Shown piece after piece: positions 38,247 through 62,585 of a DNA stretch of 64,000 nt. The position numbers were made by a program, and so were the translations under genes. The DNA is from Halobacterium sp. CBA1132 (GTDB lineage Archaea > Halobacteriota > Halobacteria > Halobacteriales > Halobacteriaceae), in contig NZ_BCMZ01000001.1 in assembly GCF_001485535.1 (NCBI RefSeq), positions 2,108,001-2,172,000 of the forward strand. The letters run 5' to 3'. Each line of letters begins with the position of its first letter. The stretch's first letter is position 1. Under the pieces are notes generated by a model, which ran no database searches, was not told where the DNA came from, and saw only the letters and a list, made by a program, of their open reading frames with translations.

Positions 38247-38507
38247 ATGCTGGAACTGTACCAGTCCGAAGGCTGTCCGCACTGCGCGAAAGTCCGCGAG
38301 AAGCTCTCGGAGCTCGGCGTCTCCTACGTCACCCACAACCCCCGGCTCCCGGGCGGCGCGGGCGGCGACGTCACGAACGAACAGACCTACGAGGAACTCC
38401 AGAACGGCGGCGCCGACCAGATTCCGTACCTCGTCGACACCGCCCGCGAGGAAGCGCTCTACGAGAGCGACGACATCGTGGAGTACCTCGACGAACACTA
38501 CGCGTAG
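38247..38507 (+). CDS. Glutaredoxin/GST N-terminal domain protein
   Basis: The 86-aa thioredoxin-fold protein starts MLELYQSEGCPHCAKVREKL with a CPHC redox motif. It has the conserved cis-Pro region DQIPYLVDTAREEALYESDD and ends VEYLDEHYA. It probably reduces disulfides or mixed disulfides; haloarchaea use gamma-glutamylcysteine rather than glutathione. Its last codons are the first copy of a 92-bp tandem repeat extending downstream. Confidence 0.88.
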   Translation: MLELYQSEGCPHCAKVREKLSELGVSYVTHNPRLPGGAGGDVTNEQTYEELQNGGADQIPYLVDTAREEALYESDDIVEYLDEHYA

Positions 38508-38688
38508 CGGTTTTGGTCCAGATTTTCCCGCGAGCGGAGCGAGCGGGAAAAGGTGGGCGACCTGACATCGTGGAGTACCTCGACGAACACTACGCGTAGC
38601 GGTTTTGGTCCAGATTTTCCCGCGAGCGGAGCGAGCGGGAAAAGGTGGGCGACCTGACATCGTGGAGTACCTCGACGAACACTACGCC
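38472..38688. repeat. 92-bp tandem repeat duplicating the glutaredoxin-like 3' end
   Basis: Copies start at about 38472, 38564 and 38656 (the last is partial, about 32 bp). Each full unit holds the final gene codons (IVEYLDEHYA and stop), a short AT stretch, and a 9-bp hairpin TTTTCCCGC/GCGGGAAAA (38523-38551 and 38615-38643). The copies are identical by eye, so the duplication is recent or kept homogeneous. Confidence 0.9.
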
Positions 38689-39076: not shown

Positions 39077-39376
39077 CAATTCCCTCGCGCATCCACGAGA
39101 TATCGAACGGACAGCGACACAGCCGTCGCTGGCCGGTTCGAGTGTCAGAGGAGTGCGCCGACCGGGAGTGAGCAGTCCGCAGGACTGCGAACATCGGAAG
39201 ACGCTGCGCGTCTTCCGGGAATTGAACCGAAATCAGACGGTCCTGCTCGCCTCGCGGCGCTCGGCTGCGCGGGCTGCGGCTGATAGGCTTCAATTCCCTC
39301 GCGCATCCACTGCAGTATCGAACGGACAGCGACACAGCAGTCGCTGTCCGGTTCGAGTGTACGAGAAGTGCGCTGG
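39077..39376. repeat. Duplicated tRNA-Gly 3' flank with inserted hairpin pair
   Basis: About 80 bp directly 3' of tRNA-Gly (39291-39370) is repeated at 39077-39156 with a 214-215 bp offset and some mismatches. The distal copy reaches CCGGGA and is then interrupted by two hairpins (39172-39188 and 39196-39216). These are followed by CCGGGAATTGAACC (39215-39228), matching the tRNA T-arm at 39377-39390. This looks like a decayed tRNA 3' end that received a hairpin insert. Confidence 0.6.
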
Positions 39377-39439
39377 CCGGGAATTGAACCCGGGCTATGA
39401 GCTTGGGAAGCTCATGTCCTACCACTAGACCACCAGCGC
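39369..39439 (-). tRNA. tRNA-Gly (CCC)
   Basis: The minus strand folds as a cloverleaf. Acceptor GCGCTGG/CCAGCGC, a short D arm and anticodon stem TGAGC/GCTCA with loop TTCCCAA (anticodon CCC) are present. The T arm is CCGGG-TTCAATT-CCCGG. The discriminator is A and no CCA is encoded. No intron. Confidence 0.95.
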
Positions 39440-60327: not shown

Positions 60328-61473
60328 ATGGCAAGCGACACCACTCCGGTCATCGCAGCGGCCTACCGAACCCCGCAGGGCAAGGAAGGCGGCGTGTACG
60401 CGGACACGCGCAGCGAGGACCTCTCGGTTCCGCTCATCGACCACATCCTCGACGAACACGACCTGACCAGCGACGACATCGACGACCTCCAGTGGGGCGT
60501 CGCTCAGCAGCGCAGCGAGCAGGACAACAACGTCGCGCGCGTCATCGCGCTCCTCTCGGAACTCGGCGAGGACGTGCCCGCGGCGTCGGTGAATCGCTGG
60601 TGCGCGTCCTCGATGGAGGCCATCATGCGCGCGGCCGACTCCATCAGCGCGGGACAGCGCGACGCCATCATCGCGGGCGGCGTCGAGAACATGAGCCGGG
60701 TGCCGATGGACGGCGACTCCTACGAGCACCTCCACCCGGGCCTCGCCGAGCGCTACAACGTCCCCGAACTCCAGATGGGGATGACCGCCGAAGAGGTCGC
60801 CGAGCGCCACGACGTCACCCGCGAGGAACAGGACGAGTACGCGCTCCAGAGCCAGCAGCGCGCCGCCGAAGCCACCGACGCCGGGCGCTTCGACGACGAA
60901 ATCGTCCCCATCGAGACAGAGGACGGTCTCGTCGAGGAGGACGAGGGCATCCGCCACGACACCTCGCTGGAGGCGCTCGGCCAACTCCCCACCGTGTTCA
61001 AGGGCGACGGCACGGTGACGCCCGGGAACGCCAGCCAGATTTCGGACGGTGCGGCCGCGACGCTGGTCACCAGCGAGCAGTTCGCCGAGGACCACGACCT
61101 CGACGTGCTCGCGTACGTCGGCGACCACAACGTCGCGGGCGTCGACCCGCGCGTCATGGGCATCGGCCCAGTCCCCGCGACGCGCGGGCTGCTGGAGCGC
61201 ACCGGCGAGGACATCGAGGACTTCGACCTCGTGGAACTCAACGAGGCGTTCGCGTCCCAGACGCTGTACGCCCGCGACGAACTCGGCATCGACAACGAGA
61301 AGTTCAACGTCAACGGCGGCGCCATCGCCGTCGGCCACCCGCTGGGCGCGAGCGGCGCGCGACTCCCGGTCACGCTGATTCACGAGATGGAGAAGCGCGA
61401 CGCCGAGAAGGGGCTGGCGACGCTCTGCGTCGGCTTCGGCCAGGGTGCGGCCATCACGTTCGAGCGGAAATAG
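60328..61473 (+). CDS. Thiolase family acetyl-CoA acyltransferase
   Basis: The 381-aa product has thiolase motifs: the active-site Cys in VNRWCASSMEAIMRA (about residue 92), the His in VNGGAIAVGHPLGASGAR (about 337), and the second Cys in TLCVGFGQGAAITFE. It catalyses reversible condensation or cleavage of acyl-CoA, in fatty-acid oxidation or mevalonate entry. No adjacent DUF35 partner is seen. Its last codons are duplicated 244 bp downstream. Confidence 0.93.
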   Translation: MASDTTPVIAAAYRTPQGKEGGVYADTRSEDLSVPLIDHILDEHDLTSDDIDDLQWGVAQQRSEQDNNVARVIALLSELGEDVPAASVNRWCASSMEAIMRAADSISAGQRDAIIAGGVENMSRVPMDGDSYEHLHPGLAERYNVPELQMGMTAEEVAERHDVTREEQDEYALQSQQRAAEATDAGRFDDEIVPIETEDGLVEEDEGIRHDTSLEALGQLPTVFKGDGTVTPGNASQISDGAAATLVTSEQFAEDHDLDVLAYVGDHNVAGVDPRVMGIGPVPATRGLLERTGEDIEDFDLVELNEAFASQTLYARDELGIDNEKFNVNGGAIAVGHPLGASGARLPVTLIHEMEKRDAEKGLATLCVGFGQGAAITFERK

Positions 61474-61753
61474 CTGGAGTGGTTCACCGAGCGCGCAGCG
61501 CTCGGGCGCCGAGAACCCCCGTAGGGTTCTCGTGAGCGGAGCGAACGAGAGCACGTCAGAGCTTCGCTCTGACGGGGGTCCGACGGCGCTTTTGGCCGAG
61601 CTTTTGCCGAGTGAGCAACGCGGTACGGGCGACTCGCGGGTCGCCCGTACAACGAAGCGAACGCAGCGCAAAAGGTCGTCGCGTCAGGGTGCGGCCATCA
61701 CGTTCGAGCGGCGATAGCTGGAGTGGTTCACCGAGCGCGCAGCGCTCGGGCGC
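61441..61753. repeat. 69-bp direct repeat of the thiolase 3' end around a hairpin array
   Basis: 61441-61509, which contains the thiolase stop, recurs at 61685-61753 with two mismatches (ERK-stop becomes ERR-stop). Hairpins between the copies include 61510-61532 (CGAGAACCC stem), 61555-61573 (GTCAGAGC-TTC-GCTCTGAC), and 61623-61650 (11-bp stem). No other gene is seen in 61474-61820. Confidence 0.8.
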
Positions 61754-61820
61754 GGCGCGGGACGCGGCGCCCGCGCCGAAACCACGAAACTGATACCGGA
61801 GCCTCGTTTCTCTCGACGCA

Positions 61821-62585
61821 ATGCGTTCCGTCGGCATCGTCGTCCCCGCGTACGACCCGAACGTCGAGGTGCTGGTGTCGTACCTCCGCGCCCTCCAAGA
61901 CGTAGTCACCCCCGAGCGTCTGCACGTGGAGTTAGACGCCGGTTCGGCGGAGACGGCCGCCGCGATTCGGGAGGCGGGAGCGACCGTGAACCACGCGAGC
62001 GAGCGCCGTGGCAAGGGCGCCGCCATCACCGCGGGGTTCGAGGCGTTGGACACGGACGTCCTCGCGTTCGCGGACGACGACGGCGCCACGCCCGCCGCGT
62101 CGCTGGCGCAGGTCGTCGCGCCCGTGCGTGACGGCGACGCGGACCTCGCGGTCGGGTCGCGCAGGCATCCCGACGCGGCCGTGACCGGCCACCAGACGCT
62201 CGTGCGGCGCTTCCTCGGGGACGGGTTCGCGTGGCTCGCGCGCCGGTTCCTCGACGTCGACCTCTACGACTACCAGTGCGGCGCGAAAGCCATCACGGCC
62301 GAGGGGTGGGAGAACGTCCGCGACCACCTCTACGAGGGCGGGTTCGCGTGGGACGTCGAACTCGTGGCGATGGCGGGCGCCCTCGACCTCCGCGTGCGGG
62401 AAGTCCCAATCGAGTGGGAGGACCAGCCGGGGTCGACGGTGTCGCCGGTGGAGACGTCGATAGCATTGTTCCGCGCGCTGGTGGCGTCGCGCCACCGGTC
62501 GAAGCTCCTGCGGGACAGCCAGCTACACGAAGCCATCGCGGCGCGCCGCGACGAACAGGCCGCGCTCGTCGAACAGCACCGATGA
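61821..62585 (+). CDS. Glycosyltransferase family 2
   Basis: The 254-aa GT-A-fold enzyme starts MRSVGIVVPAYDPNVEVLVS and has GKGAAITAGFEALD and the metal-binding FADDDGATP (DXD type) near residue 88, then DYQCGAKAITAEGW. This is typical of polyprenyl-phosphate sugar transferases of the DPM1/GtrB group. Overlap of 4 nt with the GtrA gene (ATGA) suggests a GtrA-GtrB-like pair. Confidence 0.9.
   Translation: MRSVGIVVPAYDPNVEVLVSYLRALQDVVTPERLHVELDAGSAETAAAIREAGATVNHASERRGKGAAITAGFEALDTDVLAFADDDGATPAASLAQVVAPVRDGDADLAVGSRRHPDAAVTGHQTLVRRFLGDGFAWLARRFLDVDLYDYQCGAKAITAEGWENVRDHLYEGGFAWDVELVAMAGALDLRVREVPIEWEDQPGSTVSPVETSIALFRALVASRHRSKLLRDSQLHEAIAARRDEQAALVEQHR

Follow-up and report, generated by a model that had tools for sequence, protein, structure and literature searches.

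A palindromic element behind haloarchaeal genes, with copies of the gene 3′ end on either side

Introduction

Behind a thiolase gene of Halobacterium sp. CBA1132, the end of the gene occurs a second time, on the far side of a cluster of hairpins. This raises the question of what such an arrangement represents: an inserted unit that duplicated its target, an old tandem duplication, or a second gene end that can still serve as one. An original prediction, made from the letters of the DNA, had likened it to an inserted unit with a long target duplication around it, with the second copy as an alternative in-frame C-terminus if the spacer were lost. Here, we describe the locus, compare it with its relatives and with similar arrangements elsewhere in the haloarchaea, and discuss how duplicated gene ends of this kind may arise and persist.

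Results

The thiolase 3′ end

The thiolase gene lies at 60328-61473 of the window (the whole stretch of 64,000 nucleotides that was analysed; the thiolase locus and the second array described here are on its plus strand), and its open reading frame matches Thiolase_N (1.1e-71) and Thiolase_C (4.1e-46). A repeat search confirms that a 69-bp segment containing the thiolase stop codon recurs downstream: 61441-61509 and 61685-61753 are identical at 67 of 69 positions (97%, two mismatches), with a start-to-start distance of 244 bp. The first copy comprises the last codons, the stop and 36 nt of hairpin-containing 3′ flank, and the second joins a downstream flank that is common to the relatives. Four stems can be read from the sequence at this gene end. 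The first (CCGAGCGC-GCA-GCGCTCGG, 61487-61505) lies within the duplicated stretch, and the other three lie between the copies, where at least three strong hairpins had been predicted: GAGAACCC / GGGTTCTC (61511-61531), CGTCAGAG / CTCTGACG (61554-61574) and GTACGGGCGAC / GTCGCCCGTAC (61623-61650, also found by folding). The last of these is the terminal hairpin of a longer one that forms the core of an element we designate as E (61590-61678). This core has a T-tract at 61590-61593 and GGT at 61674-61676, and its foot, CG at 61597-61598, pairs with CG at 61677-61678 by the foot rule described below. The element proper may begin at 61594, as the T-tract belongs to the target in the Halococcus pair (see below).

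The region 61441-61800 has a folding energy of -191.9 kcal/mol, whereas its shuffled versions average -165.0 (z -5.0; none of 100 is as low), and 61590-61680 folds as a single long hairpin (z -4.1; 0 of 200 shuffles as low). The spacer consists of 175 bp of hairpins with no open reading frame beyond mechanical ones, and other sites are similar. Rfam gives no match at E<=1 in 61400-61850, and a scan for bacterial-style promoters and terminators gives none either.

Variation among thiolase loci

Inspection by eye of the stretch 3′ of the thiolase gene in 30 loci reveals a second tail in eight of them, including four of the 13 from the genus (G000, G001, G005 and G011, of which G011 has three tails and two spacers). 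The remaining carriers belong to other genera of the same family (G013, G017, G018) or to another family (G052). With this distribution, the unit is not an old duplication common to all relatives; the finding named beforehand as decisive against an insertion, an equally decayed unit in every relative, is not what the orthologous loci display. The second copy is absent from nine of the 13 genus genomes (by eye), in agreement with an inserted unit. One of them, G010, has an element-like remnant and no second tail copy, and in G013 the second copy is followed by a truncated second element.

In seven of the eight cases, spread over several genera, the second copy begins at the same CAG codon (CAGGG), and in G018 it begins 54 nt further upstream. 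A copy start common across genera favours old duplications that were homogenised or passed on. Within one genome, the copies differ at 0 of 27 nt (five genomes), 1 of 27 (two) or 7 of 27 (one), leaving out three spurious extra hits in G011 and G005, while copies from different genomes differ by 2-9 of 27 nt. Private variants are common to both copies of a genome. The thiolase duplications are either young or homogenised.

Occupied and empty sites, repeated events and arrays

The clearest occupied and empty sites come from Halococcus, where Halococcus morrhuae DSM 1307 has E and one extra tail copy and Halococcus thailandensis JCM 13552 has neither. Aligning the two places E directly after the TTTT of the 3′ flank, with a 52-nt duplication that runs from CAGGG through the stop to the T-tract. 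The copy in Halorussus aquaticus likewise ends at TTTTC, and on these grounds the T-tract with which the core pattern opens probably belongs to the target. In compact cases, mostly 43-66 nt separate the copy start from the end of the T-tract; longer cases have extra hairpin modules.

An SDR-like gene (named by eye) has a second copy of its tail in six of 16 loci (by eye). In G012, two different E's stand behind this gene, with feet GGTGCA and AGCGTA, and each is followed by its own tail copy, the two starting at different bases. Tandem duplication cannot yield this, so two independent insertions occurred at one gene. Together with the Halococcus pair, this supports the part of the original prediction that concerned an inserted unit with a long duplication.

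Arrays also differ in copy number. A repeat scan of the window finds the order tail-E-tail-E-tail at 38472-38687, at the end of a small glutaredoxin-like gene (38247-38507; named by eye). The tail copies lie at 38472-38503, 38564-38595 and 38656-38687, and the two E cores between them (38511-38556 and 38603-38648) are identical. Copies 1 and 2 end in GCG TAG, and copy 3 ends in GCC TGA, as do the element-free genomes G002, G012 and G008. This gene has a second copy in three of 18 genomes (by eye).

The pattern and spread of E

E is a dispersed palindromic element consisting of a T-tract, NNAG, a long hairpin and GGTN′N′. The spacers have a common core: a T-tract, five bases, AG, one base, a T-tract, a hairpin, an A-tract and RGT. 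A strict form of the pattern is found 34 times in the thiolase locus's own genome, and across the class it occurs in 103 of the 145 genomes sampled and in 47 of 58 genera; these counts are lower bounds, since the loop of the thiolase core itself is too long for the strict pattern. The reversed pattern has no matches in the same 145 genomes. Within the genus, G007 (H. salinarum DSM 3754) has no strict core and the other genomes have 8 to 34. On viral contigs, at least 120 stretches match a degenerate E pattern.

In 88 of 91 type-1 cores, the dinucleotide preceding AG is complementary to the one following GGT; the set includes some orthologues and array members and does not represent 91 independent events. 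None of 2000 shuffles does as well. The foot pairing ends at this dinucleotide. Five kinds of Watson-Crick foot pair occur (CC/GG 43, CG/CG 19, GT/AC 13, GC/GC 8 and GG/CC 5), and all five combinations recur across different genome families. NN is GT in 15 of the 91 cores. Beyond what the original prediction had claimed, the arrangement is thus general, the foot of the element is conserved, and in the clean Halococcus pair E sits behind a T-tract.

How often E accompanies a duplicated gene end

Thirty of 115 E cores (110 loci) are followed by a direct copy of their left flank, against 3 of 344 in a mismatched-pair control, and 27 of these 30 copies start at most 10 nt from the right end of the core. 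The matched stretches vary between 14 and 64 nt, and the duplication at the thiolase gene is 69 nt. The other 85 cores are without a detectable tail copy. Copies are found at 2 of 52 cores beside a convergent gene, defined as a gene called (mechanically) within 60 nt on the right, and at 28 of 63 elsewhere. Of the 35 copy-free cores in the latter group, several have a convergent gene or tRNA opposite them when inspected by eye. At convergent genes in G000 (e.g. L040, L042 and L043), E reaches to within a few bases of the stop codon of the gene on its right, and a longer series of hairpin modules usually precedes it on the left; E resembles a shared terminator there.

Irrespective of E, gene tails are repeated downstream within 600 nt at a score of at least 18 in 7 of 783 sampled genes, against 2 of 783 for starts repeated upstream, 1 of 783 for internal segments and 0 of 783 for mismatched tails and flanks. 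At a score of at least 16, the same four counts are 9, 3, 5 and 1 of 783; short genes escape this count. In sixty 20-kb stretches taken from three genomes there are further duplications, nearly all at gene 3′ ends, with some at tRNA ends and one at a gene start (L081). A few tail-hairpin-tail loci are without an E core (e.g. L099:8150-8440), and E may therefore be dispensable.

Second copies diverge like coding sequence

Comparison of 35 coding tail pairs from 18 gene families yields 57 synonymous and 10 nonsynonymous codon differences. The synonymous share expected by chance is 24-30% (P 1e-14), or 39-46% (0.456) if copy 1 changes only silently (P 2e-11). All 12 families with differences lean synonymous, and without the thiolase and SDR-like pairs the counts are 44 and 6. 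In arrays, copy 1 was compared with the next copy. Left out were RNA genes or loci with an unclear frame (L121, L177, L188, L189, L221, L228, L249, L254 and L255) and the second array units L111, L129 and L256; the SDR-like pair of G005 was also absent. Adding four left-out pairs, namely the G005 pair and three named loci, gives 59 synonymous and 13 nonsynonymous differences in 39 pairs, and using the other copies for four arrays gives 60 and 15 (39 pairs). Two of the added pairs contain tail copies with nonsynonymous changes, three in all.

The position of the stop is conserved in 34 of 35 second copies, in nine of them with a different stop codon, and eight of the 35 pairs are identical. The synonymous bias and the retained stops indicate that second copies either coded for protein until a short time ago or continue to exchange sequence with coding tails. 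This lends indirect support to the idea of an alternative in-frame C-terminus. An enrichment of the stop context TAGCG in copy 1 was also considered and rejected as too weak (5 of 35, by eye, against 58 of 865 genes).

Discussion

A probable inserted element with a spare gene end

The explanation that we favour, with some reservation, is that a palindromic element inserts with a long target duplication and can be removed precisely, and that its spare gene end and the working one exchange sequence with each other. On balance, the 244-bp thiolase unit would then be one case of a haloarchaea-wide class in which E stands behind a gene and the gene's 3′ end lies on both sides. E would insert behind a gene-terminal T-tract, and insertion would duplicate the preceding stretch, i.e. 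the last codons, the stop, a short 3′ flank and the T-tract. Further hairpin modules may be gained or lost later. Precise removal of E would follow from recombination between the direct repeats, and the two tails would stay alike through exchange, either inside one genome or with E-free alleles, whereby copy 2 would become a spare C-terminus with its own stop. Counting against this history, the sampled genomes are one per species and both insertion and excision are read from comparisons between them. The coding-fit spare end points to an element whose loss, and perhaps transfer, leaves the gene undamaged.

The duplication is not a classical transposon target duplication, since its length is not fixed and the 69 bp at the thiolase gene include part of a hairpin module. 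Across sites, too, the duplication varies in length and often includes hairpin modules, unlike in ordinary transposition.

E probably also works as a transcription terminator, given its T-tracts and hairpin behind the stop, since in Haloferax volcanii transcription is terminated by T stretches downstream of genes. By pattern, T-tracts are located behind the stop codons at E sites. A more far-reaching and tentative possibility is that E is a haloarchaeal element targeted to transcript ends. It would insert behind the T-tract at an mRNA end, duplicate the last few dozen transcribed bases and so gain the host 3′ end on both sides. Insertion would do no harm, removal would be exact, and homologous recombination alone could carry E into empty alleles, with the spare tail under indirect purifying selection as a recurrent working C-terminus.

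Alternative origins of the second copy

A serious rival, though on present evidence an unlikely one, is capture of a foreign allele. Here, copy 1 and E would come from a diverged strain, brought in by homologous recombination within the gene and an illegitimate junction downstream of E, and the two tails would be alleles of two species; the cassette would then spread, both of its ends being homologous to empty alleles. The mostly synonymous differences and the often different stop codons fit this, as do the common CAGGG start at the thiolase gene and the glutaredoxin-like array in G000, whose last copy ends like the E-free relatives. Similarly, copy 2 in G165 is closer to G087 (TTGCGA...TGA) than to its own copy 1 (by eye). 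Against capture, however, stand the identical pairs, the private thiolase variants found in both copies of a genome, and the SDR-like and thiolase genes themselves, in which no raised divergence at the 3′ end marks imported DNA.

Ordinary replication slippage that duplicated tail and hairpin in tandem, with the last hairpin lost afterwards, is improbable as an account of the whole. Near-identical tandem arrays do exist (window 38472-38687, L050, L086 and L256), and the truncated second element in G013 is what such a process could leave, but most copies end without a second E, the two E's of G012 differ along with their copy starts, and the Halococcus pair reveals the gain of one E and one copy. 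Slippage is disfavoured as the birth event and likely right for later changes in copy number. Finally, a second copy that functions where it stands, reached by read-through or by joining at the RNA level, and is under selection as coding sequence would account for coding constraint and retained stops, but it is very improbable, as the absence of a frame rule in copy spacing (mod 3: 10, 10, 15) argues against read-through of the unit, and both E and the first copy's stop codon intervene.

Relation to known systems

If the insertion of a removable element is the right reading, which known elements does E resemble? Like the REP sequences of REP/RAYT systems, it is a short imperfect palindrome with many dispersed copies behind genes, and its short conserved 5′ foot may be comparable. 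Bacterial REPs begin with GTAG or GTGG in the part of the literature covered (PMC2817692), and GTAG is one form of the NNAG foot of E. Unlike that of REPs, the foot of E is variable and base-paired to the 3′ side, and gene-tail repeats flank the element. A Y1 (HUH) transposase was considered as the current mover and rejected, as Y1 genes do not track E across the genus: Y1_Tnp is found in seven of 13 genus genomes, with none in G012 (28 E cores) and two in G007 (no strict cores), a distribution compatible with loss of Y1 after the spread.

IS200/IS605 elements and haloarchaeal PATEs share with E the hairpins near their ends and a T-rich site on the 5′ side. The passages covered describe them as making no target duplications (PMC3119063; PMC2817692), unlike E sites, where they are long, with left-flank copies at 30 of 115 cores and 52 nt in the Halococcus pair. 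The hairpin with its pairing foot resembles the ends of both REP and IS200/IS605, which, in those passages, make no such duplications. MITEs and DDE transposons make a short target duplication of fixed length, in contrast to the duplications of varying length at E. Their ends are inverted repeats related to a transposase; E is a single long hairpin. Integrase attachment at a gene 3′ end would predict an integrase-coding or integrase-derived element, whereas E spacers are hairpins.

In Haloquadratum and Halobacterium, precise loss of DNA between direct repeats has been described and proposed to remove inserted elements without a trace (PMC3119063). The repeats there are mostly shorter than 20 bp and have no link to gene ends, whereas those around E are coding-competent gene tails. 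Terminators of Haloferax volcanii consist of a T stretch behind the gene, with hairpins near some 3′ ends (PMC7237163), and are like E in both respects; the passages of that paper covered here mention no repeats or duplicated gene ends. In searches of the open-licence PMC literature, we found no description of gene-tail duplications around hairpins in haloarchaea.

If the favoured explanation is true, about 1% of genes in some haloarchaea (judging by the 783 sampled) bear a reversible 3′-end element with a spare coding end. This would demonstrate how a non-coding element can persist at gene ends without harm, enable a concrete test of short-repeat exchange in archaea, and explain duplicated gene ends that otherwise resemble assembly or annotation noise.

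Other duplicated ends

Duplications around hairpins also occur at other kinds of sites. The gene start in G011 (L081:11250-11560) is duplicated around a hairpin, with ATGAGTGACGAACCAGAAATCCTC... occurring twice, 140 nt apart, and the hairpin in the first copy. Tandem tRNA 3′ ends separated by hairpin units of ~90-150 bp, without an E core, are found at L097:12130-12450, L053:330-900 and L062:16953-17250. In the window, a 67-bp repeat (39101-39167 and 39316-39382; 90%, spacing 215) lies beside a tRNA-Gly gene (39368-39439), with partial copies of the tRNA-Gly 3′ sequence nearby; a search of the window for a suspected tRNA-Gly tail array returned only the tRNA itself at 19 or more of 28 matches. 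Lastly, a stretch containing GTACGCCCGGAACACTA is located directly 3′ of E in L121, L189, L228, L236 and L254, from several genera. It is duplicated on the left of E in four of these five loci and may be the end of an RNA gene.
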